Of a stretch of 36,326 nucleotides of DNA, positions 8,063-24,334 are shown one piece after another. Both the position numbers and the translations under genes were made by a program. Below the pieces are notes generated by a model. It searched no databases. It worked only from the letters and a program-made list of their open reading frames with translations, and was not told the DNA's origin. The stretch lies in the NCBI RefSeq assembly GCF_000442515.1, contig NZ_AQPH01000032.1, positions 1 through 36,326 of the forward strand, given 5' to 3'. Position 1 is the first letter of the stretch; the number at the start of each line of letters is the position of its first letter. The DNA comes from Magnetospirillum fulvum MGU-K5. GTDB taxonomy: Bacteria; Pseudomonadota; Alphaproteobacteria; Rhodospirillales; Magnetospirillaceae.

Positions 8063-8137
8063 TGGGGCGTCGCCAAGCGGTAAGGCAGCGGTTTTTGGTA
8101 CCGCCATTCGGAGGTTCGAGTCCTCCCGCCCCAGCCA
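8063..8137 (+). tRNA. tRNA-Gln (anticodon TTG)
   Basis: A 75-nt cloverleaf with CCA encoded. The acceptor stem TGGGGCG pairs with CGCCCCA (discriminator G), the D arm contains GCCAAGCGGTAAGGC, and the anticodon stem GCGGT/ACCGC encloses the loop TTTTGGT with anticodon TTG. The T arm is GGAGG-TTCGAGT-CCTCC. Decodes CAA/CAG. Confidence 0.95.
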
Positions 8138-8263: not shown

Positions 8264-8461
8264 TTATTTGGTCAGAATCAGCTTGTTCTGACGGGTGACC
8301 CGAAGCGTGTATTCGCACCCTTCGTGCTCAATAATCAAAGCCTTGCGATTCGATAGCAACGCTTGGCTGCTGATCTTCGCAAAAGCGGAATCGTCGGGGC
8401 GGCAAAGCGTCAGCGTCCCCCACCCGTCCGACTCTTCCCCCCGGTCACGCGGTACCGACAT
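8264..8461 (-). CDS. hemP: Hemin uptake protein HemP
   Basis: A 65-residue protein whose C-terminal half carries the HemP signature YTLRVTRQNKLILTK at the very end, preceded by LIIEHEGCE. HemP/HmuP proteins are small, accompany heme-uptake genes in proteobacteria and, in Bradyrhizobium and Burkholderia, are needed for expression of the heme receptor. I chose ATG at 8459-8461 because a strong GGGAGGGGG precedes it; the frame extends 12 codons further upstream. It is the last gene of the minus-strand receptor-tonB-cobN-like-exbB-DUF2149 operon, 50 bp after DUF2149. Its presence is independent evidence that the operon substrate is heme or a related tetrapyrrole. Confidence 0.88.
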   Translation of the reverse strand: MSVPRDRGEESDGWGTLTLCRPDDSAFAKISSQALLSNRKALIIEHEGCEYTLRVTRQNKLILTK

Positions 8462-8511
8462 AGCCCCCTCCCCTCGTCTGGTTCTGTCCCCCATCACATC
8501 GTCCGGTCGGA

Positions 8512-8823
8512 TTATTCCGGAACGTAAACCATCGAGCCGTCCTTGAGACGATAAGCGATTCCGGCCTTGGCCCCTTCGCCCTGGCCGATGCTGCCGCTCG
8601 ATTTATAGCGGTCGAGCTTCTGCCCATCTTTGACCACGATCTCCATGTTGGGCTGGCCGGGATTCTTGATCATTGTCACCTGATCGGCGCTGAACGGATT
8701 CATCGGATTGCTGGCGACCGCAAGCAGCAGGGCGGCGATCACCACCAGAAACACGTCGATCAGATTGACCACCGACAAGATCGGATCGTCGGCATCGCTT
8801 TCTTCAAGCAGTCGGGAGGTCAT
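8512..8823 (-). CDS. DUF2149 family protein (ExbD-like partner of the Ton motor)
   Basis: A 103-residue protein with a short cytoplasmic N-terminus (ESDADDPILSVVNLIDV), one membrane helix (about 18-38) carrying an acidic residue at D23, and a small periplasmic domain. This layout matches DUF2149, a family found next to MotA/TolQ/ExbB and CobN-like genes in archaea and bacteria and equivalent to HmuV of the Bacteroidetes hmu loci. The intramembrane Asp is positioned like the proton-carrying Asp of ExbD/TolR. The start overlaps the upstream exbB stop by 4 bp (ATGA at 8820-8823 read on the minus strand). Upstream frame extension to 8955 lies inside exbB and is rejected. Confidence 0.82.
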   Translation of the reverse strand: MTSRLLEESDADDPILSVVNLIDVFLVVIAALLLAVASNPMNPFSADQVTMIKNPGQPNMEIVVKDGQKLDRYKSSGSIGQGEGAKAGIAYRLKDGSMVYVPE

Positions 8824-9365
8824 TGCGCCGCCTCCATCGTCAGGACCGCATCCACCGCCCGAGACGACAGAATCGCGGCATCGGGGCATGGGCGCAGGCG
8901 ATCGATCGCGATCATATCCTCGGCGTACCAACGGCGACGAACATTGACGACCCAATAGGCCAGCGACGCCGCCACCAGCGACAGGATCACCGCAGAGAAC
9001 GCGACGGTCAGATTACCGCCGACGGCGGCGAAATTGCCATCGGCCAGCGATTTCAACGCCGGTCCCATCGGAATCATCGTTGCGACCAAGCCCAGCATCG
9101 GGGCGACCCGGCTGACAATTCGGGCGCTTTCCAACCGGCGAAAGGCCAGGGTTTCCAACTCGACCGCGTTCATGTGGCGATTGCCCCGCCACGTTTCGAT
9201 AAGATCGAATCCGGCTGGGTCGTCCTGTCGCCGCTGCCGCATCTGCCACAGAAAGCCGCCGACGGCGTAAAAGGCGTAGAGGAACAGGGCCACGACCGCG
9301 ACAAGGACGGGGATCTGGAACAATTGGCTGGCACCATAGAGAAGGTCTTCGAGGTGAAACGCCAT
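8820..9365 (-). CDS. MotA/TolQ/ExbB proton channel family protein
   Basis: A 181-residue inner-membrane protein with three hydrophobic helices, one near the N-terminus (about 17-40) and a pair within the MotA/ExbB domain (about 88-110 and 124-146). The domain carries the conserved VSRVAPMLGLVATMIPMGPAL and FSAVILSLVAASLAYW segments. ExbB-type proteins form the proton-driven stator that energises TonB. ATG 9365 follows the CobN-like stop by 2 bp and its stop overlaps DUF2149 by 4 bp, so the three proteins are made together. It replaces a standard ExbB for this dedicated system. Longer upstream extension in this frame would lie inside the CobN-like gene. Confidence 0.88.
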   Translation of the reverse strand: MAFHLEDLLYGASQLFQIPVLVAVVALFLYAFYAVGGFLWQMRQRRQDDPAGFDLIETWRGNRHMNAVELETLAFRRLESARIVSRVAPMLGLVATMIPMGPALKSLADGNFAAVGGNLTVAFSAVILSLVAASLAYWVVNVRRRWYAEDMIAIDRLRPCPDAAILSSRAVDAVLTMEAAQ

Positions 9366-9367
9366 GG

Positions 9368-12300
9368 TTAGGCTCCGTGCGAAAGTGAAGAGAGGGAAAG
9401 CCCCGGCTGGCTCCGCCGCGCCTGCCGCACCAGCCCACCAACCAGGGCGGACATGATCACCAGGGCCGACAGAAGAGCGGTCCAGTCGAGCGGGACCGGG
9501 GATGAATCCGGCTGTTTTTCCAGCTTTTGACCGCTGACGGTCTGGGTCGGCGCCGCAGGAGCGGCCGATTGCGGCTGGGCGGGCGACGCGGGCTGGGCCG
9601 AAAGCCCATAGCCCGCCGCCTGGGCGACGAATTCGGTGAATTTGGCGTTGTCGCTGACGATATCGTGGCGGCTGGCCAGATCTTGCCAACGGCGCGCCAG
9701 ATCGGCGACGGTCTGGGACTCGGCGTGCCAATAATCCTTGCGCACCGCTTCCAGCATCCGCTCGATCATCTGGGCCTGAGCCTGGGGATGGGTCTTTTCG
9801 AACCATTCGTTGACGCCCAGCTTGTATTTGTCATCGACATAGACCGCCTTGAACTCGGCCCATTGGTCGTCGCGAACCGTTTCCGGCGCGGTGGCCTGCC
9901 ATCCCCACAGATTATTGACGCTGTCGAGGATTTCGATCGCGCCGCTATAGCCTTCCTTCTGGGCCTTCTCGATCCAGCCGGGATGGAGATAGCGGGACTT
10001 CAGATCGCGGGCGAGGAAGCCCGCGGCGGTTTCGGTGCGCGGACGCCCGGCTTCGCGCAGATTCGAGATATAAAGCGCGGGCGACTGACCCGACAGATGC
10101 CGCACCGCGAGCGAGATGCCGCCCAGATATTGGAACGGGTCGTCGGTGGTCAGCATCCCATACAGGTTCGACGACCGGGACAGCACCGCCCCCTTCACCC
10201 CTTTCAGATGCTCGGCAAAGGCGTTGACCGGCGGCTTTTCACCCCAGCGCGATTCGTCCGGGCCATAGGCGAACTGCATCCGGTCGAGATACAGCCCGGC
10301 CAGCTTGCGCTCGCCCTCGGCCCGGTTCTCCTTGCCGTCGGCACCGGTGCCCCAACTGTCCGACGCCAAGGTAGCGCCATCGAGTCCGGTGCCATAGGCC
10401 CCGGATTCCGATGAGAACAGCCGGGTCCGGGCCAGACGGGCCGCCTCGTCCGCCGCGACTCCCTGACCGCGCAAGGTCGCTTCGACCGCGTTGGTATGGG
10501 CGGCGATCGCGTTGCCCGGCTCGCTCAACCGGCTGGTCTGGGCAGCGGCCTCGGCCAGCCATTTCATCAGATTGGGAAAGTGATCGCGGTACAGCCCGGT
10601 GACGGAAATCACCGCATCAACACGCGGACGCTTCAACTCGGCGGCGGGGATCACCTCAATCCCGATCACCCGTCCGCCCTGATCCCATTTCGGGCGCACC
10701 CCCATCACCGCCATCGCCTGGGCTTCCAGAACGCCGAAGTGACGCATCGTTTCGACCGACCACAGGGTAAAGGCCAGCTTGTCGGGGAATTGGCCGGTAC
10801 TGTCGCGGTGCTGGGCGATCAGCTTTTCCGCCGCCTCGCGCCCGGCCTCCCACGCCTCGCGGGTCGGCACCCGCGACGGATCGAAGCCATAGAGATTGCG
10901 CCCGGTGGGCAAACTGTCGGGATTGCGGATCGGATCGCCACCATACGAGGTCGGGATCATCCGCCCGGACAGACCGGCCAGCAACGATTGGGTCTCGCGC
11001 GGGGCCGACAGCGCCAACCAATAGCCCCGCCCCTTTTCGATCAGATCGGCAATCGCCTGCTTGCCCTGATACGGCTCGCCCCGGCGGACATGACGGTCAA
11101 GCAACGCCCAGGCGGCGGTCTGTTTCAGCTTGGTATAATCGCCGACGACGCTTTCCTCGGGATCGGCGGGGTTCAGAGCGGTCAGCAACGGCTTGCCCAA
11201 CATCTGCATCACGGTGAACAGGCGGTCGTCCGGGGCGGCGGGTTGGCCAAAATGGGCCAGCCCGATCGGCTGCTGCGCCAGCGCAAGCTCGTGCAGATGG
11301 GTATGCAGGGCATCGACGAAATGGCGAAAATCGCGCTCGATCGCCTCGGGCGTCAGTCCCATGTCCTTGTCCAGGGTCAGACTTTTGGCCTGGGCGCGGA
11401 TCTCGGCGGCGGTCTTGGCGCGGACCTCGCCCTCGTCCATCGACAGCCACGTATGAAGCAGATCGTGCAGCCGGGTGATGTCGCCATGCAGCCCGGCCGG
11501 ACCAAAGAACGGCGTCGCGTGCGAGATCGTCACCGCCCGGCCACGCCGCTTGGCCTGGAGCGCCTCGCCGATATTATCGACGATATAGGGATAGAGAACC
11601 GGGAGGTCGCCCAGCACGAGGTAGGGGAAGTCCTCGACCGCCAGACCGCGTTCCTTGCCGGGTTGCCATTCCTGGGTGCCGTGGGTACCGAAGTGAATCA
11701 GCGCGTCGGCGCGGAACTGATCGCGCGCCCACAGATAGGCGGCAAGATAGGCATGGGACGGCGGCGCCTTGGTGTCGTGGTACAGCGCCTTTTCGCGGTC
11801 GTCGAGCCGTTCGCCGCGCGGCGGTTGCGGCAGAATCGTCAGATTGCCGAGCGACAGGCGGGGAATCACGAACGAGCGTTCGAACAGGTGGCGGACCACC
11901 ATCCCCGACTGTTCCGGCTGGCCCCAGCGATCGAGAATCGGACGGCGCACCGTTTCGGGCAGGCTGTCGAACCACGCTTTGTAGCGCGCCACCGGCAGCT
12001 TGGCCGCCAGTCCCTGTTGCAGCAGGGATTCGGCCTCGCCGTCGCGATAATAGGGGCGCAGCATCGCCGTCATCTGCTCGATCAATTGATCGGAGGTGCG
12101 CGGCGTGACGCGGTATCCCGCCTCCTGCATCGCCGCCAGCACGGTTTCGAGACTCTGGGGTACGTTAAGGAACGAGGCCCCCAGATTCTTTTCGCCCGCA
12201 GGGTAGTTATAGAAGAACAGCGCCACCTTCTTGTCGGCGGCGGGCAGGCGCTGAAGCCGGACCAGCCGTAGCGCCTTGTCGATCGCGGCCTTGGCCTGAC

Positions 12301-13336
12301 GTTCGATCGGCCGGATCGCGCCGTCGCTGGCCCGGTTGACGCTGGCGATCAGCGGATCGGCGATCCCGGTATATTCGGGTTGGGAGAGATAGAACGGAAT
12401 GTCCTGGGTCGCGATGCCGACCGGGTCTTTTTCCCAATCCGTCTGCTCGCCCTTGCGGTAGGGCATCGCCTGAATCACCGGCAGGCCAAGCGCCTCGAAC
12501 TCGGCCTTGCGGCCCTCGGGGTTCAAGACGATCTGGGTGTTGACGATCACCGAGGCGATCGGCTTGCCCGCAACCGACATCAGCCGGGTGATTTCACCAT
12601 TGGCCATCGGCGAGACATAGACCGCCAGCGGCACCGCTCCGGCGCTTTCGATCCGGTGGATCAGGTCGTCGATAAAGCCGGTGACCTCGGAATCGATATG
12701 GGTGCGGTGGATCAACAGCCCGATCACCGGCCCTGGCTTGGCCAGATCGATCCCCTTCCAACTCAGATAAGCCTCGGCGGTGGCAAAGATGCGCGGCCCG
12801 TATCCGGGGTGATAGATGCCGGATTCGGGGAAGACCATCGCCTCGGCGCAAGCCGGGCCGCCGGTGTGGAACAGTGACTGGTTCATCTGGCACAGGAAGC
12901 CGGCGAAATTGGCCCGCCCGCCATTGATGAAATAGCGGTGAAGCCGGGCGGCGGTCTCTTCGTCCACGCCGTTCGAAAGGGCGCGGTTGGATTGCATCCA
13001 AATCCAGGGCGCCGACACAGCGGGCAGCAGCGGGGCCAGTTTCGACTGGGCCGTTCCCAGGGCCGATCCGAACGGGGCATCGATCACGACCAGATCATGG
13101 CCGGACAGATCGTCCGGACGCAGTTCGGTGCCGGGCCGGTCGATGAAGCGGTACTCCATCTCGATCCCGGCCGCCTGGGCCAAGGGGGCGATTGCCTCGT
13201 ACTTCCCCGCCTGCATCGGCGCGGCGGACAAAATCAGCAGCGACCGCGCCGAAACCGGAGCCGCCCCGAACAGGGTGCCGATCAGAAGCGCCAACAGCGC
13301 CCAGGCGCAGAGCCGCAGATAAACAGACGAAACCAT
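9368..13336 (-). CDS. CobN-like chelatase with signal peptide and C-terminal membrane anchor (HmuS-type)
   Basis: A 1322-residue member of the CobN/BchH/ChlH large-subunit chelatase family. Family motifs are HFGTHGTQEWQPGK starting at H548, YPYIVDNIGEALQAKRRG, LPTGRNLYGFDP, LWSVETMRHFGVLEAQA, RPRVDAVISVTGLYRDHFP, ESGAYGTGLDG and DDPFQYLGGISLAVRHL. The canonical CobN NREHDLLDSDDY stretch is replaced by SRSSNLYGMLTTDDPFQYLG, as in the membrane-associated CobN-like group. An N-terminal signal peptide (1-30, ending APVSA) and a C-terminal helix (about 1285-1303) followed by RQARRS indicate a periplasmic, membrane-anchored protein. That is incompatible with cytoplasmic cobalamin synthesis; no CobS/CobT gene is near. 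Proposed role, by analogy with HmuS of Bacteroidetes: metal removal from (or insertion into) an imported tetrapyrrole. ATG 13336 is chosen for GGAGAG upstream and the signal peptide. Confidence 0.9.
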   Translation of the reverse strand: MVSSVYLRLCAWALLALLIGTLFGAAPVSARSLLILSAAPMQAGKYEAIAPLAQAAGIEMEYRFIDRPGTELRPDDLSGHDLVVIDAPFGSALGTAQSKLAPLLPAVSAPWIWMQSNRALSNGVDEETAARLHRYFINGGRANFAGFLCQMNQSLFHTGGPACAEAMVFPESGIYHPGYGPRIFATAEAYLSWKGIDLAKPGPVIGLLIHRTHIDSEVTGFIDDLIHRIESAGAVPLAVYVSPMANGEITRLMSVAGKPIASVIVNTQIVLNPEGRKAEFEALGLPVIQAMPYRKGEQTDWEKDPVGIATQDIPFYLSQPEYTGIADPLIASVNRASDGAIRPIERQAKAAIDKALRLVRLQRLPAADKKVALFFYNYPAGEKNLGASFLNVPQSLETVLAAMQEAGYRVTPRTSDQLIEQMTAMLRPYYRDGEAESLLQQGLAAKLPVARYKAWFDSLPETVRRPILDRWGQPEQSGMVVRHLFERSFVIPRLSLGNLTILPQPPRGERLDDREKALYHDTKAPPSHAYLAAYLWARDQFRADALIHFGTHGTQEWQPGKERGLAVEDFPYLVLGDLPVLYPYIVDNIGEALQAKRRGRAVTISHATPFFGPAGLHGDITRLHDLLHTWLSMDEGEVRAKTAAEIRAQAKSLTLDKDMGLTPEAIERDFRHFVDALHTHLHELALAQQPIGLAHFGQPAAPDDRLFTVMQMLGKPLLTALNPADPEESVVGDYTKLKQTAAWALLDRHVRRGEPYQGKQAIADLIEKGRGYWLALSAPRETQSLLAGLSGRMIPTSYGGDPIRNPDSLPTGRNLYGFDPSRVPTREAWEAGREAAEKLIAQHRDSTGQFPDKLAFTLWSVETMRHFGVLEAQAMAVMGVRPKWDQGGRVIGIEVIPAAELKRPRVDAVISVTGLYRDHFPNLMKWLAEAAAQTSRLSEPGNAIAAHTNAVEATLRGQGVAADEAARLARTRLFSSESGAYGTGLDGATLASDSWGTGADGKENRAEGERKLAGLYLDRMQFAYGPDESRWGEKPPVNAFAEHLKGVKGAVLSRSSNLYGMLTTDDPFQYLGGISLAVRHLSGQSPALYISNLREAGRPRTETAAGFLARDLKSRYLHPGWIEKAQKEGYSGAIEILDSVNNLWGWQATAPETVRDDQWAEFKAVYVDDKYKLGVNEWFEKTHPQAQAQMIERMLEAVRKDYWHAESQTVADLARRWQDLASRHDIVSDNAKFTEFVAQAAGYGLSAQPASPAQPQSAAPAAPTQTVSGQKLEKQPDSSPVPLDWTALLSALVIMSALVGGLVRQARRSQPGLSLSSLSHGA

Positions 13337-13349
13337 CAGGCTCTCCAGA

Positions 13350-14045
13350 TCAACGCAGAACGAAATGCACCGGAACCTGGACCCAGGCCTCGGTGTGACG
13401 CCCATTCCAATAGGCCGGTTCGAAGGTCCAGCCGCGAACCGCCGCCTCGGCCGCCGTATCGAGCAGGCGAAAGCCCGAGGTCTCCCAGATACGAACATCG
13501 CGCGGGCGGCCATCGGTCCCGACCAGGGCGCGGACCAGCACGGTGCCCTGCTGGTTGGTGTCCATCGCCCGCTTCGGGTACGACGCCGGGGCCGGGGGAT
13601 GCCGAAAGCGTGGCACCGTGATCAATGGCGGCTCGGCCGGAACCGGGTCCGGATCTCGCGCCTGCTCCGGTTCCGGCTCCGGCCCCGCCGGGCCGACCGC
13701 CGGGGCGAGAGGCAGAGCCGCCGGAACAGACGGCTTGGTCACCTCGCGCACCGGGGATGGCGGCGGCGGTTTGGTGGGACGCGAGACCGGGCGGGGCGTC
13801 GGCTGCGGACTCACATCGGGCGGCCTGGGATCGCTCCGGGCCGGAGCAACCGACGGGGCGGGCCGCTCCGATGCCAACGTCACCCATGTCACCGACAGAG
13901 ACGCGGCCGGAACCGCCACCGCCAACGGGGGAGACGGCGGCGGTCTGGTCGCCCAGATCAACAATCCGCCATGAACCCCGGCCGAAATCAGCAAGGCACC
14001 AAGATAGGCCGGGGGCGAAGGCCGGATGTCGATCCGTCTGTCCAC
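13350..14045 (-). CDS. TonB family energy-transducing protein
   Basis: A 231-residue protein with a single N-terminal membrane helix (about 13-32, AYLGALLISAGVHGGLLIW), a long Pro-rich periplasmic spacer (about 35-150, with many PxP repeats and an acidic PEPEPEQ patch), and a C-terminal TonB domain (about 150-231). The domain starts YPKRAMDTNQQGTVLVRALV and includes AAEAAVRGWTFEPAYWNG. TonB couples the inner-membrane proton-motive force to outer-membrane receptors. The start is GTG at 14043-14045, directly abutting the receptor stop codon (TAAGTG), so translation is probably coupled. It is dedicated to this operon, 13 bp ahead of the CobN-like gene. Confidence 0.9.
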   Translation of the reverse strand: MDRRIDIRPSPPAYLGALLISAGVHGGLLIWATRPPPSPPLAVAVPAASLSVTWVTLASERPAPSVAPARSDPRPPDVSPQPTPRPVSRPTKPPPPSPVREVTKPSVPAALPLAPAVGPAGPEPEPEQARDPDPVPAEPPLITVPRFRHPPAPASYPKRAMDTNQQGTVLVRALVGTDGRPRDVRIWETSGFRLLDTAAEAAVRGWTFEPAYWNGRHTEAWVQVPVHFVLR

Positions 14046-16028
14046 TTAGAATTGCCGACTGAGCGTCAGCTTCAGATTGCGACCGGGATCGCGGGTGCTG
14101 GCGAGGTGGGGGCGATAGGATTTGTCGAACAAATTATCGACGGCGAATTGAATGCGGGTTCCCTCGGCCGGGCCGTCGCTGGGAGTCCACCCGGCAAACA
14201 GATCGTGCAGGGCATAGCCGCCGGTCGGCAACCCGCCGGTCGGCACGTCCTTCTGACTGCCGACCATCGTGCCGCGCCAACCGAAATCGAGATCGGCATC
14301 AATCCAGCGGCCGCCCAGCATCAGGGTCAGCTTGTCGGCGGGAATGCTCGACAGCGGCGATCCGCTCTCGGAATCCTCGCCCTCGATATGCGCCGCGCCC
14401 AGGCTGGCGAACAGAATCGTCATGTCGTAATTGGCTTCGGCCTCGATTCCCTTGATCTCGGCCTTGCCGACATTGACATAGCGGGTGGTGGTGGCCCCAA
14501 CGATCTGATCGATGAAATTATCGACCGAGTTGGCATAGGCCGAGACCTTGGCCCGCAGCTTGTCGTTGGACTGGAAGACGTCGCTGAACTTCAGATTGAC
14601 GCCGACTTCCTTGTTATGCGCCGTTTCCGGCTTCAGGTCGGGGTTGGCGATGAAGGTGTTGCCGGGATAATGCTGGCCGCCGACATAAAGCTCAGTCAGA
14701 GACGGAGCCCGGAACGCCTCGGCATAGGTGCCCCAAAGCTGAAGCCACGGTGCCGGGGTGACCTTGATTGTGGCCTGCGGCGAGAAATGCTCGCTGGTGA
14801 CATCCTCGCGGCCCGCACGTTCATTTCCGATCCGATCATAGCGTCCGCCGACGATGAGGCTGAGAACCGGCAGCAACGTCACTTCGTTCTGGGCAAAGGC
14901 CCCGAACGTGTCCTGATTGGCGCGGGGGAAGCTGTCACGGGCGGCCCCGTTGCGGGTCGCCTTTTGCTGATCGGTCAGATAATCAATGCCATAGGTCAGG
15001 GCATGGCCGACCCCCACCGTCGAGAATCGCGAGGTGTTGGACAGATCGAGACCCTGGGTTAGCAGCTTGGTCTGGTCGCGCCGATACGAACTCTTGCGGT
15101 CTTCCTCGATCGCCAGATTGGTCTGGTGCAAGGTGGCGTGGGCGTCCAGCCACTTCAGATCGCTGGGGGCCAACGCCCAGTTCAGCGCGATGGTATCTTC
15201 CGAGGTCTTGCGCTTCACCAGCGGGTTCGAGGCGGTGACCGTATCGCCATCGGCATTGCTGGGAGCGTCGAGGGTATCGCGGAACTGCATCCCCATCAGG
15301 CCGATTGTGTGGCCGTCGCCCAGCTTGACCGAGCCCTTGACCATCCCGCTGCCGATATCGTCGCCGGAATAGGGAACCTTGTCGCCATTGCCGTCTTTGG
15401 TATTGCCATCGTGACGTCGGGTCACGCTGGCGAGAAGGTCGACCGCGTCAATCGGACGGGCAAAGGCGGTCATCGACGCCATCTTTTGCGCATTGGCGCT
15501 CTGGAAGCCGACGGTGCCGACCCCGCCCCACGTTTCGCCGGGACGAAGGAAATCGGCGGCATCCTTGGTCCGCATGTTGATGACACCGCCCAAGGCCCCG
15601 CTGCCATACAGCACCGAATTGGGGCCGCGCTGAACATCGACTTCTTTCAACAGCAGCGGATCAAGGAAGAACCGGCCCTTGTGCCCGGCATTGAAGGTCT
15701 TGCGCGCCCCGTCGATCGTGGTGACGACCCGGTCATCCGACATGCCGCGAATATTGGCACTTTGCGCCGAACTGCGGGTGCCGCCGCTGATGGTGACGCC
15801 GGGAATGTCTTCCAGCAGATCGCCCACGGTCTGGGGCTGCTCCCGCTCGATTTCCTCCCGACCGATCACCGTTACCGCAGCGGCAGCATCGGCGACGCTT
15901 TGCTGGGTGCGGGTCGCGGTTGTCGTCACCGCATCAAGCGCAGTGACCGGAACCGGATCGGCGGCAAAAGCGGCCAGCGGAAACAAGGACGCGGAAACAG
16001 AAAGATACAGACCGGAACGCAAAGCCAT
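14046..16028 (-). CDS. TonB-dependent heme/hemoglobin-type outer-membrane receptor
   Basis: A 660-residue outer-membrane beta-barrel receptor. A signal peptide (1-22, ending AAFA) is followed by a plug domain (VTVIGREEIEREQPQTVGDLL, RGMSDDRVVTTIDGARK, VDVQRGPNSVLYGSGALGG) and a barrel ending in LKLTLSRQF with a terminal Phe. The heme-receptor signature is present: FRAP (439-442) and NPDL (462-465) with a histidine between them, H453 in GGQHYPG. This is the arrangement of HemR, ShuA and P. gingivalis HmuR, where the His binds heme. The first gene of the operon, it follows a Fur-box-like promoter (16121-16149). ATG 16028 has TTGGAG about 11 nt upstream. Substrate heme is inferred; cobalamin is less likely because BtuB lacks this motif. 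Confidence 0.92.
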   Translation of the reverse strand: MALRSGLYLSVSASLFPLAAFAADPVPVTALDAVTTTATRTQQSVADAAAAVTVIGREEIEREQPQTVGDLLEDIPGVTISGGTRSSAQSANIRGMSDDRVVTTIDGARKTFNAGHKGRFFLDPLLLKEVDVQRGPNSVLYGSGALGGVINMRTKDAADFLRPGETWGGVGTVGFQSANAQKMASMTAFARPIDAVDLLASVTRRHDGNTKDGNGDKVPYSGDDIGSGMVKGSVKLGDGHTIGLMGMQFRDTLDAPSNADGDTVTASNPLVKRKTSEDTIALNWALAPSDLKWLDAHATLHQTNLAIEEDRKSSYRRDQTKLLTQGLDLSNTSRFSTVGVGHALTYGIDYLTDQQKATRNGAARDSFPRANQDTFGAFAQNEVTLLPVLSLIVGGRYDRIGNERAGREDVTSEHFSPQATIKVTPAPWLQLWGTYAEAFRAPSLTELYVGGQHYPGNTFIANPDLKPETAHNKEVGVNLKFSDVFQSNDKLRAKVSAYANSVDNFIDQIVGATTTRYVNVGKAEIKGIEAEANYDMTILFASLGAAHIEGEDSESGSPLSSIPADKLTLMLGGRWIDADLDFGWRGTMVGSQKDVPTGGLPTGGYALHDLFAGWTPSDGPAEGTRIQFAVDNLFDKSYRPHLASTRDPGRNLKLTLSRQF

Positions 16029-16120
16029 GCCGAATCACTCCAACGCAAGGACCGTTGTTTGCAAGGAGGCGTGGCTGGCTGCCGCGGGGGGAGCGGGCTG
16101 GCTGGCTATTCCCGGGCGGC

Positions 16121-16149
16121 ATTTTATGAGATTGAGAGTCGTTTGCAAT
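16121..16149 (-). promoter_or_regulatory. Candidate iron-regulated promoter with Fur-like box
   Basis: On the minus strand TTGCAA (16143-16148) and TAAAAT (16121-16126) are spaced by 16 bp, ending about 90 bp before the receptor ATG. A 19-bp imperfect palindrome at 16131-16149, with ATTG and CAAT ends and a 7-1-7 core TGAGAGT-C-GTTTGCA, overlaps the -35 and spacer. The layout resembles Fur boxes of alphaproteobacteria. Binding of Fur (or Irr/RirA) is inferred. Confidence 0.5.
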
Positions 16150-20574: not shown

Positions 20575-21615
20575 ATGACCATGCGCGTTGTTTTTCCTTT
20601 TTCGGCGATCGTCGGTCAGGACGAGATGAAGCAGGCCCTGTTGGTCGCGGCGGTTTCGCCGACCATCGGCGGCGTCCTGGTTCTGGGGGATCGCGGCACC
20701 GGCAAGTCCACCGCCGTGCGCGCCCTGGCGACTCTGTTGCCGAAGATGGCAGTGGTGACGGGCTGTCGGTATAGCAGCGACCCTGCCACGGACGAAAAGA
20801 AGTGCGTCGATGGCTGCAACGGCCACCACGGCGTCAATGGGCAAAAGCCCGAAGTCTCTTATGTTCCGGTTCCGGTGGTCGATCTGCCGCTGGGCGCGAC
20901 CGAAGACCGCGTCGTCGGTGCGCTCGATCTCGAACGCGCCCTGACCCAGGGCGTCAAGGCGTTCGAACCCGGCCTGCTCGCCCGCGCCAATCGCGGCTTC
21001 CTTTATATCGACGAAGTGAACCTGCTTGAGGATCACCTGATCGACGTTCTGCTCGACGTCGCCGCTTCGGGCGAAAACGTCGTCGAACGCGAAGGCATCT
21101 CGATCCGCCACCCCGCCCGCTTCGTTCTGGTCGGTTCGGGCAACCCGGAAGAAGGCGAGTTGCGCCCGCAGCTGCTCGACCGGTTCGGCCTGTCGGTCGA
21201 AATCCGCACCCCCACCGATCTGGCCGCCCGGATCGAAGTGGTCCGTCGCCGCGACGCCTTCGACCGCGACCCCGAGGCGTTCGTCGCCCAGTGGGCCGAG
21301 GAAGACGCCAAGATCGGCGCGCTGATCGTCGCCGCCCGCGACCGTCTGCCCAACATCACCGTGTCGGATGCGGTGCTGGAACAGGCGTCAAAGCTGTGCA
21401 TGATCCTCGGCACCGACGGTCTGCGCGGCGAACTGACCCTGCTGCGCACCGCCCGCGCCGTCGCCGCCCTGGACGGTTCCGATGAAGTGCTGTCGGATCA
21501 CCTGCGCCGGGTCGCGCCGTCGTCGCTGCGTCACCGTCTGCGCCGCAACGTCCTGGACGATGCCGGTTCGACCGTCCGCATCGAGCGCGCGATGGAAGAG
21601 GTGTTCGGCAAATGA
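20575..21615 (+). CDS. bchI: Magnesium chelatase ATPase subunit I
   Basis: BchI is the AAA+ ATPase that, with BchD and BchH, inserts Mg2+ into protoporphyrin IX, the entry step to bacteriochlorophyll. The 346-residue protein has VFPFSAIVGQDEMKQAL (6-22), Walker A GDRGTGKST (38-46), the VVDLPLGATEDRVVGALD insert, Walker B LYIDEVNLLEDH (143-154), SGNPEEGELRPQLLDRFGL with the Arg finger region, and sensor 2 in SDGLRGELTLLRTARA. Three cysteines (C64, C77, C81) sit in the insert after Walker A. ATG 20575 lies close behind GGAG; ATG 20581 is an alternative. The stop overlaps the bchD start by 4 bp. Confidence 0.97.
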   Translation: MTMRVVFPFSAIVGQDEMKQALLVAAVSPTIGGVLVLGDRGTGKSTAVRALATLLPKMAVVTGCRYSSDPATDEKKCVDGCNGHHGVNGQKPEVSYVPVPVVDLPLGATEDRVVGALDLERALTQGVKAFEPGLLARANRGFLYIDEVNLLEDHLIDVLLDVAASGENVVEREGISIRHPARFVLVGSGNPEEGELRPQLLDRFGLSVEIRTPTDLAARIEVVRRRDAFDRDPEAFVAQWAEEDAKIGALIVAARDRLPNITVSDAVLEQASKLCMILGTDGLRGELTLLRTARAVAALDGSDEVLSDHLRRVAPSSLRHRLRRNVLDDAGSTVRIERAMEEVFGK

Positions 21616-23456
21616 GTGAGCCCGACGCGGGTCCCGGGGCGTCTTCGCCCTGGGCCTCGGCGGCGCTGGCCGCCGCCCTGCTTGCGGTCGATCCGGTCGG
21701 GATCCGCGGCGCTTCCGTGCGGTCGCTGGCCGGACCGGCCCGCGATCGCTGGCTTGGCCTGCTGAGGGATTATCTGCCCGAGGATGCGCCGATGCGGCGC
21801 ATCCCGACCCACATCACCGACAGCCGCCTGCTGGGCGGCCTCGATCTCGCTTCGACGCTGCGGATGGGCAAGCCGATTGCCGAACGCGGCGTGCTGGTCG
21901 AAGCCGATGGCGGCATCGTCGTCCTGGCGATGGCGGAACGGCTGTCGGCCGGAACCGCGGGCCGGATCGGCGGCGTGCTCGATCGCGGCGAGGTCCAGTT
22001 GGAGCGTGACGGCCTCGGCCTGCGCTCGACCGCCCGGATCGGCGTTGTCGCCCTCGACGAAGGCTTGGCCGACGACGAACGGCCGCCGACGGTGCTGACC
22101 GAACGGCTGGCGTTTCTGCTCAATCTCGACAACGTCGTCGAAAGCGATCTGTCCGCCTCGGTGATCCCGCCGTCCCAGGTTGCGGAAGCCCGCGCCCGGC
22201 TGGATTCGGTCACCTTCCCCGACGATATCATGGTGGCGCTGTGTTCGGCCTCGGTCGCGCTCGGCATCGCCTCGGTGCGTGCCTCGCTGCTGGCGGTCAA
22301 GGTCGCCCGCGCCGCCGCCGCCCTGGCCGGGCACGAGGCGGTGACCCAGGAAGACGCCGCCACCGCCGCGTCCCTGGTGTTCGGGCCGCGCGCCACTGTC
22401 ATTCCGAGCGGAGAGCCGCAGGAAGACGAGCCGCCGCCCGACGAACCGCCGCCGCCGGAAGAGCCGTCGGACCCCGACCAGCCGGAGGAACCGCAGGACG
22501 AGGACGACAGCGACACCCTCGACCCGCAGGAACTCGAAGACATGATGATCGCCGTCGCGCAGGCGGCGATTCCCGACAAACTGCTGGCGCAATTGCGCGA
22601 GGGCAAGGACGTGCGGTCGCGCGCCCAATCCTCGGGCGGTAGCCGCGCGGCCGGGGCCGCGAAGAAAAAGGGTCGGCGCGGCCGTCCCTCGGCGGTGCGG
22701 GCGGGCGAGCCCACCCCCAACACCCGGCTCAATCTGATCGAGACCCTGCGCGCCGCCGCCCCCTGGCAACCGCTCCGCCGCCAGGAAGCGGCCAAGGAAG
22801 GCCGCACCGCGACCCTGGTCGAAGTCCGGCGCAGTGATTTCCGCTGCACCCACTTCAAGCAGCGGTCCGAAACCACCACCATCTTCATCGTCGATGCCTC
22901 GGGATCGTCGGCGTTGCAGCGTCTGGCCGAAGCCAAGGGAGCGGTCGAACTGCTGCTCGCCGATTGCTATGTCCGCCGCGACAACGTTGCCCTGATCGCC
23001 TTCCGGGGCAAGGCCGCCGAGGTTCTGCTGCCGCCGACCCGCTCGCTGGTCCGGGCCAAGCGCTCGCTGGCCGGGCTGCCCGGCGGCGGCGGCACCCCGC
23101 TTGCCTCGGCGATCGACACCGCCTGGATGGTAGCCACCGGCTGTCGCGACAAGGGGCAGACCCCGGTGTTGGTGTTCCTCACCGACGGTCAGGGCAACAT
23201 CGCCCGTGACGGTACGCCGGGCCGCCCGATGGCCGAAGCCGATGCGATTGCCTCGGCTCAGGCCTTGCGGGTTTCCGGCTTCTCGGCGATGCTGATCGAC
23301 ACGGCCCGGCGTCCGCAGCCGATGGCGCAGAAGCTGGCGGCGGAAATGGGAGCGAAATATCTGTTGCTCCCCTACGCCGACGCCAACGCGATGTCGAAGG
23401 CGGTCAAAGCCACGGCCGCAGAATCGGCCGCCGCCGAAGGAAGGATGAGGGGATAA
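21612..23456 (+). CDS. bchD: Magnesium chelatase subunit D
   Basis: BchD is the second AAA+ subunit of Mg-chelatase and forms the platform with the BchI ring. The 614-residue protein has an N-terminal AAA-like domain without a functional Walker A (about 1-260), an acidic Pro-rich linker (about 266-310, many EPP/PEE repeats), and a C-terminal von Willebrand A/integrin I domain. The MIDAS motif is DASGSS (D428-S433), followed by AKGAVELLLADCYVRRD and the second metal-site loop GGGGTPLASAID. It starts at ATG 21612, overlapping the bchI stop, and is followed 2 bp later by bchO. The length and domain order are normal for the family. Confidence 0.97.
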   Translation: MSEPDAGPGASSPWASAALAAALLAVDPVGIRGASVRSLAGPARDRWLGLLRDYLPEDAPMRRIPTHITDSRLLGGLDLASTLRMGKPIAERGVLVEADGGIVVLAMAERLSAGTAGRIGGVLDRGEVQLERDGLGLRSTARIGVVALDEGLADDERPPTVLTERLAFLLNLDNVVESDLSASVIPPSQVAEARARLDSVTFPDDIMVALCSASVALGIASVRASLLAVKVARAAAALAGHEAVTQEDAATAASLVFGPRATVIPSGEPQEDEPPPDEPPPPEEPSDPDQPEEPQDEDDSDTLDPQELEDMMIAVAQAAIPDKLLAQLREGKDVRSRAQSSGGSRAAGAAKKKGRRGRPSAVRAGEPTPNTRLNLIETLRAAAPWQPLRRQEAAKEGRTATLVEVRRSDFRCTHFKQRSETTTIFIVDASGSSALQRLAEAKGAVELLLADCYVRRDNVALIAFRGKAAEVLLPPTRSLVRAKRSLAGLPGGGGTPLASAIDTAWMVATGCRDKGQTPVLVFLTDGQGNIARDGTPGRPMAEADAIASAQALRVSGFSAMLIDTARRPQPMAQKLAAEMGAKYLLLPYADANAMSKAVKATAAESAAAEGRMRG

Positions 23457-23458
23457 TC

Positions 23459-24334
23459 ATGCAAAGCCGGCTGATCTGGGATACGGACGGGCGCGATTGG
23501 CCCAACCGCCAGGCCAGCCGGTTTGTCCCTGCGGGTGGGATGGTCTGGCATGTCCAGCAGGCCGGAAGCGGCCCGGTGCTGTTCCTGATCCACGGCACCG
23601 GCGCCACCACCCATTCCTGGGCCGGTCTGTTCCCGCTGCTGGCCGAAAATTTCACCGTCATCGCTGCCGATATGCCCGGTCATGGTTTCACCACCCGACC
23701 GGCCCCGTCGCACATGTCGCTGCCCGGCATGGCGCGGTCGCATCATGCCTTGCTGCGGGCGTTGGGAATCGTGCCCTCCCTGGTGATCGGGCATTCGGCC
23801 GGAGCGGCAATCCTGGCCCGGATGTGTCTGGATGGGCTGATCGCGCCCAAGACCCTGATCAGCCTGGGCGGTGCCCTGTTGCCGCTCGACGGGCTGCCCG
23901 CGCGGATTTTCTCCCCGCTGGCTAAGATGATGGCCGCCCTGCCCCATCCGCCCTATCTGTTCGCGTTGCGCGCCCGCTATACCTCGATGGTCGATGATCT
24001 GATGAAGGGGACCGGCTCGGTGCTGGCCCCGGAAACCATCGAACTCTATCGCCGCCTCGGCATGTCGCCCGGCCATGTCGGCGCTGCCATCGCGATGATG
24101 GCCAATTGGGATCTAAAGCCGCTGCGGCGCGATCTGCCCCACCTGCGGGCCCATCTGATCCTCGCCACCGGCTCGAACGACCGCACCATCCCGCCGGTGA
24201 TGACCAAGAAGGTCAACGCCCTGGTGCCCGGTTCGGAAGTGGTGACGTTCGAGGGCTTGGGCCACCTCGCTCACGAGGAACGGCCCGACCTGATCGCCGA
24301 TCTGATCCGCCACGCCGCGGGCTTGCCGAAATAA
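23459..24334 (+). CDS. bchO: Alpha/beta hydrolase BchO (magnesium-chelatase-associated)
   Basis: A 291-residue alpha/beta hydrolase that accompanies bchI-bchD in photosynthetic bacteria. It is required for normal bacteriochlorophyll synthesis, but the reaction is not settled. The nucleophile elbow is GHSAG with S113, the oxyanion region is LIHGTGATTHSW (43-54), and the catalytic His lies in FEGLGHLAHEERPDLI near the C-terminus. The N-terminal DGRDWPNRQASRFVPAGGMVWH is typical of BchO. ATG 23459 follows the bchD stop by 2 bp with GGAAGGATGAGGGG just upstream. It is last in the bchIDO operon and is followed by palindromes from 24349 that may end transcription. Confidence 0.93.
   Translation: MQSRLIWDTDGRDWPNRQASRFVPAGGMVWHVQQAGSGPVLFLIHGTGATTHSWAGLFPLLAENFTVIAADMPGHGFTTRPAPSHMSLPGMARSHHALLRALGIVPSLVIGHSAGAAILARMCLDGLIAPKTLISLGGALLPLDGLPARIFSPLAKMMAALPHPPYLFALRARYTSMVDDLMKGTGSVLAPETIELYRRLGMSPGHVGAAIAMMANWDLKPLRRDLPHLRAHLILATGSNDRTIPPVMTKKVNALVPGSEVVTFEGLGHLAHEERPDLIADLIRHAAGLPK

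Follow-up and report, generated by a model that had tools for sequence, protein, structure and literature searches.

An operon with a Fur-like box and a predicted periplasmic CobN-like protein in Magnetospirillum fulvum: a candidate for heme-iron extraction

Contig NZ_AQPH01000032.1 of Magnetospirillum fulvum MGU-K5, 36,326 bases long and analysed here in its full length (the window), carries a six-gene operon around a CobN-like protein with a chelatase fold. We propose that this is a Fur-controlled iron-starvation operon which would extract iron from heme in the periplasm, a reading to which we assign a probability of about 0.57. The protein is a member of a patchily distributed Pseudomonadota group with receptor-CobN-like-ExbB-DUF2149 operons, an Asp/Gln pair in the second motif, often Fur boxes and sometimes HemP or ChaN. 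An earlier sequence-only reading of this DNA had likened the operon to the hmu genes of Bacteroidota. Its placement of the protein on the HmuS side of the CobN family stood, as did the heme-type receptor, HemP and the hmuR/S/U/V-like gene set, but membership in HmuS itself did not.

Organization of the operon

The window is an entire contig (C32) of a 3.77 Mb genome in 178 contigs. Six genes lie on the minus strand between 8264 and 16028 with exact spacings of 0, 13, 2, -4 and 50 bp; the genes, families and spacings given by the sequence-only reading were all recovered from the reading frames and from Pfam and NCBIfam. The operon and its putative control site are as follows.

16131-16148, minus strand: Fur-like box TTGCAAACGACTCTCAAT, about 100 bases upstream of the receptor start
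14046-16028, minus strand: TonB-dependent outer-membrane receptor of heme/hemoglobin type, 660 residues (Pfam Plug and TonB_dep_Rec; NCBIfam)
13350-14045, minus strand: TonB energy transducer, 231 residues, GTG start (Pfam TonB_C 76 bits, cut-off 24.6)
9368-13336, minus strand: CobN-like (BtuS/HmuS-like) chelatase-fold protein, 1322 residues, HFGTHG and TTDDPFQYLGG motifs (CobN-Mg_chel 1029 bits, cut-off 24.5); N-terminal export signal and C-terminal membrane helix predicted by hydropathy
8820-9365, minus strand: ExbB/MotA-like proton-channel protein, 181 residues (Pfam MotA_ExbB 31 bits, cut-off 22.9)
8512-8823, minus strand: DUF2149 protein, 103 residues, ExbD-like layout (Pfam DUF2149 103 bits, cut-off 27.1)
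8264-8461, minus strand: HemP, hemin uptake protein family, about 65 residues (Pfam hemP 63 bits, cut-off 25)

The CobN-like gene was read from the ATG at 13336, which gives the 1322-residue form, while the mechanical open reading frame (ORF) begins at 13513. The arrangement is not a product of chance, since relatives have their genes in the same order: of 80 named loci, 69 have room for a receptor gene ahead of the CobN-like gene and 64 of these carry one, and 62 of 64 have ExbB and DUF2149 behind it. The parallel with the hmu genes, in which ExbB corresponds to HmuU and DUF2149 to HmuV according to the operon annotation in PMC10434189, holds and is wider than had been supposed, as it extends to a Zur-linked class described below.

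Family placement of the CobN-like protein

The protein passes the NCBIfam model NF004644 'cobaltochelatase subunit CobN' with 1512 bits (cut-off 1248), so that databases would name it CobN. Against the CobN equivalog model TIGR02257 it reaches 573 bits, below the cut-off of 822; the separate true CobN of the same genome (contig C37) reaches 1523 bits. Two quick trees were computed with Shimodaira-Hasegawa-like approximate likelihood ratio (SH-aLRT) supports and without an inferred root, after removal of L048, L058, L059, L062 and L063 as duplicates. Tree 1, for which only proteins longer than 1150 residues were kept, was built on the aligned protein body of 124 rows, including HmuS, two CobN chains, a single ChlH chain and relatives. 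Tree 2 was a 48-row subsample with more distant relatives, from which the longest row (ownC28b) was omitted. In tree 1 a branch with 98% support parts CobN, ChlH and the host's CobN, BchH-like and C28 proteins from HmuS and its membrane-anchored relatives, which include the window protein. Tree 2 gave the same split with 99% support. The grouping with HmuS rather than with CobN or BchH, for which the sequence-only reading had suggested such a tree, was thus recovered twice.

A profile of twelve relatives searched against the chains of the Protein Data Bank (PDB) ranked HmuS best with 699 bits, followed by CobN (614 and 603) and ChlH (560). A predicted model of residues 30-1228 (predicted local distance difference test, pLDDT, 83; predicted template modelling score, pTM, 0.79) confirms a chelatase fold, with template modelling (TM) scores of 0.65-0.68 to ChlH, and fits CobN and HmuS alike. 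By its family scores and tree position, the window protein is a CobN relative distinct from the CobN of cobalamin synthesis.

Active-site residues and residue classes

In PMC12583661, His538 of HmuS, within HFG(T/A)HG, is described as essential for heme turnover, His538 and His1209 as holding the central cation. HmuS is described there as releasing Fe(II) and protoporphyrin IX (PPIX) from heme in an NADH-dependent reaction. The same paper defines HmuS by the heme ligands Met79 and His254, a Met-rich insertion in domain IV, His1209 and Glu1212 within LSLDHxxEFMGG, and a complete hmuYRSTUV operon. In the window protein, whose residues are numbered from Val2 of the 1322-residue form, His551 of HFGTHG is the counterpart of His538, and within LTTDDPFQYLGG Asp1065 and Gln1068 stand where HmuS has His1209 and Glu1212. 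The corresponding pair is Asp/Gln in the two CobN chains and His/Asp in ChlH; the first motif of CobN reads HxGKHG, that of the window protein HxGTHG. The likeness to HmuS taken as membership in HmuS proper, as the earlier reading could be understood, fails on the features defined in PMC12583661, which are absent, the His/Glu pair being replaced by Asp/Gln. On this comparison of residues the window protein is not HmuS proper: we rejected strict membership, since four of the sequence features, and the complete operon as well, are lacking.

An adjacent clade of 20 rows (support 94), called below the Zur clade, has His/Glu at the positions of 1065 and 1068, and His at the column of HmuS His254 in 19 of its 20 rows. 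Proteins with the Asp/Gln pair are referred to as DD..Q and those with His/Glu as DH..E. When clades were defined by the tree, 23 columns differed at 90% or more in each, and only 1065 and 1068 did so without exception; an earlier column comparison had used classes set by the motif itself, which made these two columns circular there. His1117 (RYxHP) is present in 83/83 window-clade rows, and Asn takes its place in HmuS, CobN, ChlH and 18 of 20 Zur-clade rows; His1117 might replace the missing HmuS-type histidine. A further, long class of CobN-like proteins (L187-L191, 1433-1568 residues) has HxGRHS for HxGTHG and the motif NNDxxDYLGG, and is encoded beside ExbB and a divergent DUF2149.

Predicted location

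Kyte-Doolittle maxima over 17 residues are 2.20 at the N-terminal end and 2.41 at the C-terminal end of the window protein; by the same measure none of six cytoplasmic controls exceeded 1.6. Hydrophobic end segments were found at the N terminus in 85 and at the C terminus in 80 of the 91 proteins with a DD motif (90 DD..Q and one DD..E, some cut by contig ends), and in 18 and 20 of the 21 DH..E proteins. The CobN-like protein is therefore predicted to be periplasmic and anchored in the inner membrane, and the export and membrane anchoring already suggested for this CobN relative are supported, as a prediction, by hydropathy with controls. A cytoplasmic CobN was rejected on account of the predicted location, the CobN paralogue in the genome and the tree.

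Receptors, HemP, ChaN and regulatory boxes

The window receptor passes two NCBIfam heme/hemoglobin receptor models, TIGR01785 (557 bits, cut-off 317) and TIGR01786 (438 bits, cut-off 324). It has two putative heme histidines, His116 in the plug (GHKGRFFLDP) and His453 in the FRAP...NPDL segment, of the kind that work on HemR and HasR has linked to heme receptors. In a scan of 60 of the 65 window-group receptors (1e-84), 38/60 were of heme type; among Zur-clade operons 18/19 receptors were CirA-like and none of the 19 was of heme type. HemP occurs in 19/82 window-clade loci against 0/20 in the Zur clade, and TonB in 9/82 against 0/20; in the 56 of the 80 named loci that have 5 kb on both sides, HemP was counted 14 times and TonB 6 times. 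A gene of the ChaN heme-binding family lies in 20/80 loci (by clustering, one member being confirmed with Pfam). The window receptor is only 23-30% identical to 59 group receptors, whereas the CobN-like proteins are far more alike, and for this reason receptors seem to have been exchanged between operons.

Regulatory boxes were counted as Fur-like from a score of 10 of 12, and shuffles of single letters reach the thresholds in about 1% of cases or less. The counts leave out L009, L056, L139, the five duplicates also removed from the trees, loci with fewer than 300 bases upstream and motifs that do not fit the search pattern. In the first search range, a Fur-like box precedes 39/79 DD..Q operons and one more has both a Fur-like and a Zur-like box, while DH..E operons have a Zur-like box in 10/20 cases and a Fur-like box over threshold in 0/20; the other 10/20 DH..E operons and the single DD..E operon have no box. 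When the search range was afterwards widened for all loci, the numbers were 15/21 for Zur and 41 (plus one with both) of 87 for Fur. A Zur-like box alone was found before no DD..Q operon, the single Zur-like one accompanying a Fur-like box. Both residue classes co-occur in one genome (G850).

The sequence-only reading had covered 8264-16149 and passed over the Fur-like box at 16131-16148. With up to 3 mismatches allowed, the genome has four occurrences of TTGCAAACGACTCTCAAT (none in the control): the one in the window, one upstream of a flavodoxin-like gene (C9; read by eye), and those on C46 and C19, for which no target is evident. Flavodoxin is a usual target of iron starvation.

The Zur clade shows the gene layout of Pseudomonas aeruginosa PA1922-PA1925 and probably includes PA1923. 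PA1922-PA1925 is Zur-controlled and has CobN-like, 'ExbD' and DUF2149 genes, according to PMC4542158, PMC9431628, PMC8456098 and PMC13083405.

ExbB and DUF2149

The DUF2149 protein has one N-terminal membrane helix followed by a beta-rich tail, and the Asp of the helix (NLIDVFL) is kept in 23/23 aligned rows. Comparison with ExbD by hhalign gave 45% probability and an E-value of 2e-4 over only 29 aligned columns; a DUF2149 model (pLDDT 68, a weak model) found no PDB fold match at an E-value of 0.001. DUF2149 is present in 17/398 Pseudomonadota genomes, at 18 places, and at 18/18 of these the same locus holds CobN-like and ExbB-like genes. All ten genomes of the phylum sample with a match to the CobN-like protein (1e-150) are among the 17. 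At two DUF2149 loci (L187 and L189) no receptor was seen within 14-15 kb. Of 14 control genomes one has DUF2149, that of Methanosarcina acetivorans, which also has CobN-family matches; M. acetivorans is an archaeon without an outer membrane. These associations favour the CobN-like protein as the partner of ExbB-DUF2149, without proving it. In PMC12583661, HmuU and HmuV are assigned to powering the receptor (Figure 1 legend).

Distribution and host genome

A close homologue of the CobN-like protein was found in none of 39 relatives of the host (16 from its genus, 7 from its family and 16 from its order); their best matches, which we took as paralogues, reach at most 310 bits, against 3012 for the protein itself. 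At 1e-150 it is matched in 5/385 genomes of the class and 10/398 of the phylum, the host's own genome being counted. In the family of genome G441, 21/148 genomes have matches at 1e-90 with both residue classes pooled. Among the best 80 matches the nearest relatives are in Azospirillum sp. TSO22-1 (best segment 66%), then in species of Pseudomonas, Stutzerimonas, Halopseudomonas and Thiopseudomonas (57-65%). For the suggestion of the sequence-only reading that freed porphyrin could feed bacteriochlorophyll synthesis nothing was found, and the operon-bearing relatives that have names are mostly of genera not known to be phototrophic. This patchy spread suggests that the operon core was acquired horizontally. 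Base composition gives no sign of transfer (64.1% vs 64.4% G+C). Two further features of the window were noted.

8063-8137: tRNA-Gln gene immediately following the operon's 3' end; it may be an integration site
20575-24334, plus strand: bchI, bchD and bchO, 4.5 kb from the operon and on the opposite strand

Because the window carries bchI, bchD and bchO, the host looks like a phototroph. The earlier statement that the window has no CobS or CobT held among the window ORFs that were scanned, which were not all of its ORFs, but the AAA+ subunits encoded by bchI and bchD are in the window. They were rejected as partners of the CobN-like protein, being encoded on the other strand and, as far as is known, cytoplasmic; the loci of relatives were not searched for bchI or bchD. 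Pfam and NCBIfam scans found no cob gene in the operon.

Four other CobN-family genes are present in the host: CobN (C37), a BchH-like gene (C2, with ChlH in the trees) and two consecutive ones on C28. The C28 cluster (L009, 1725-18441) comprises a BtuB-like receptor, TonB, a binding protein, a FecCD permease, an ATPase and a radical SAM gene, then the two CobN-family genes followed by ChlD-like and ChlI-like genes, that is, two H subunits per D/I pair; a similar CobN-family pair occurs in genome G006. The genome has two feoB genes and a single heme-oxygenase match, beside a phytochrome; HemS was not found in it. Of its two FecCD permeases, the first belongs to the C28 chelatase cluster and the second to a run of receptor, binding protein, FecCD, ATPase, TonB and tetrapyrrole methylase genes on contig C22 (L197, 2854-9347).

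On plasmid pRUNSL01 of Runella slithyformis (L137, 1-11435), receptor, 'urease accessory protein', ExbB, DUF2149 and CobN-like genes lie between hypF and hypC/D/E. Because this module sits among hydrogenase-maturation genes, its placement hints at nickel.

Discussion

In the mechanism that we propose, the receptor, energised by TonB, would carry heme into the periplasm, as its family suggests. There the exported CobN-like protein, held at the inner membrane by its predicted C-terminal helix, would take heme into the chelatase cleft and free the iron. His551 would act as His538 does in HmuS, and Asp1065 and Gln1068, which are seen in place of His1209 and Glu1212, would assume the chemistry of that pair. 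The freed Fe(II) could enter the cell through one of the two FeoB proteins whose genes are present. ExbB and DUF2149 would form a proton-driven unit acting on the CobN-like protein and not just on TonB, as their gene association suggests, and HemP and the Fur-like box would link the operon to iron and heme. According to PMC6460266, B. fragilis cannot do without FeoAB when it uses heme iron, and periplasmic iron removal has been proposed there; by analogy, a Feo route of this kind fits the gene content of the host.

Several observations weigh against this reading. In the protein, the second active-site histidine of HmuS (His1209) is absent, a profile-sequence alignment places Pro and Ile opposite the heme ligands Met79 and His254, and there is no Met-rich insert: 50 residues without Met lie between residues 726 and 776, and HmuS has more than 200 between the matching points. 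HmuS is a long branch in both trees, and the supports of the window and Zur clades (85 and 94 in tree 1, 81 and 90 in tree 2) are under the starred level. A single-sequence PDB search ended in a near-tie (CobN 395.5, HmuS 393.0 bits), and the model matches CobN (7c6o) and HmuS (9d26) equally, with TM 0.77 each and CobN first by E-value. A histidine at receptor position 453 occurs in 1/67 group receptors, the window's own, in a loose alignment. As to regulation, 39/79 DD..Q operons have no box in the first search range, and the nearest relative, Azospirillum TSO22-1, has none before its operon. The window's own box scores 9/12, below the threshold of 10, a score reached by 0/60 shuffles and, in another run, by 7/200; no Fur-like box of the window type was found before either feoB of the genome. 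The match between boxes and residue pairs rests on few events, so that the counts of 39 and 10 are not independent: DH..E is one side of a 90% branch, and two changes are required for DD..Q, one in the window clade and one in the small group of L050-L052 and L171, which also have Fur-like boxes. Against the motor link in particular, no ExbB or DUF2149 was seen in the loci of L056 and L139, where an end-anchored CobN-like gene lies beside a true CobN, or in that of the L045 CobN-like gene, and both are lacking in 2/64 loci with room.

The alternative that survives best, although we regard it as unlikely, is that the substrate is another metal chelate, such as a zinc, cobalt or nickel tetrapyrrole or a metallophore, and that the family name of the receptor misleads. 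CirA-like receptors occur in 19/60 window-group operons, the closest Pseudomonas relatives included, and heme may therefore not be the sole substrate of the group. The neighbouring clade is Zur-linked, as is PA1922-PA1925 in PMC4542158 and PMC9431628, the Runella module lies among hypF and hypC/D/E, and the DD..Q pair is shared with CobN, whose substrate is a corrin. However, Fur-like boxes, HemP, ChaN and heme-type receptors are seen with DD..Q and not in the Zur clade, and a Zur-like box precedes just one DD..Q operon, alongside a Fur-like one.

It is likewise improbable, and next in order, that the CobN-like protein is a periplasmic heme carrier or sensor without de-chelatase activity and that ExbB-DUF2149 merely energises TonB. 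The loss of the second HmuS active-site histidine and the TonB gene of the window operon would agree with such a role, as would the receptor-powering role of HmuU and HmuV given in PMC12583661. Yet DUF2149 and an ExbB-like gene accompany a CobN-like gene at all 18 places while TonB is found in only 9/82 and 0/20 loci, L187 and L189 show no receptor nearby, and the essential histidine of HxGTHG is retained. That the gene is an ordinary cobalamin-synthesis CobN which gained a receptor operon is very hard to believe: NF004644, the CobN-like DD..Q pair and the E-value ranking of the model speak for it, but the predicted export signal and membrane helix, the separate CobN of the genome (TIGR02257 1523 vs 573 bits), the trees, HxGTHG rather than HxGKHG and the absence of cob genes from the operon speak against it.

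Returning to heme-iron extraction, we propose from the gene associations that ExbB-DUF2149 could be a motor driven by protons, in the place that AAA+ partners hold in the cytoplasmic chelatases. A broader idea, tentative and on balance doubtful, is that periplasmic CobN-fold proteins are proton-powered metal strippers in which ExbB-DUF2149 stands in for the AAA+ ATPases ChlID and CobST because the periplasm contains no ATP. In this idea the family would have divided into lines of different metal specificity, told apart by a switch of two active-site residues: Asp/Gln with Fur-controlled uptake of iron, His/Glu with Zur-controlled uptake of zinc, and possibly a nickel line in hydrogenase clusters.

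Periplasmic heme de-chelatases are already in print for Bacteroidota; neither the metal classes nor the motor link turned up in our searches. Among the open-licence papers listed, no title, abstract or index term connects PA1923 with HmuS or points to the Fur-linked class, which is weak evidence of novelty. PMC12583661 states that most remaining members of the superfamily cannot be annotated, a statement on which it bears that regulator boxes and two active-site residues sort two large groups of it. If the proposal is true, oxygen-independent removal of heme iron occurs not only in gut Bacteroidota but also in Pseudomonadota that live freely or with plants, genes named cobaltochelatase in databases gain a function, and the unexplained zinc-regulated PA1923 gains a role that can be tested. 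Should ExbB-DUF2149 drive the enzyme, metal chelatases would have a new kind of energy coupling and the uncharacterised DUF2149 a function.

Comparison with known systems

The CobN-CobST and BchH-BchID chelatases share the large-subunit fold of the window protein. They are cytoplasmic and have ATP-driven AAA+ partners. Unlike the window gene, the CobN and BchH-like genes of this host sit elsewhere in the genome. PA1922-PA1925 resembles the window operon in its receptor, CobN-like, ExbB-like (there called ExbD) and DUF2149 genes; it differs in its Zur control, and its probable orthologues have CirA-like receptors, the His/Glu pair and mostly His at the His254 position. The BtuS branch of periplasmic CobN-like proteins is, like the window protein, CobN-like, exported and set apart from CobN and ChlH, and a B. 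fragilis btuS1 btuS2 double mutant grows poorly on heme iron; the members studied, in contrast, are Bacteroidota proteins. The HmuS system of Bacteroidota, hmuYRSTUV, differs in that, by the features listed for it (PMC12583661, PMC13227078), the window protein lacks the Met-rich insert and the Met79/His254 site and has Asp/Gln for His1209/Glu1212, and the window operon has no HmuY or HmuT counterpart and has TonB and HemP in addition. Both systems have an exported, membrane-anchored CobN-fold protein, a heme receptor gene before its gene and ExbB-like (HmuU) and DUF2149 (HmuV) genes after it, HxGTHG with its essential histidine, and an R-x-S-N stretch ahead of the second motif.

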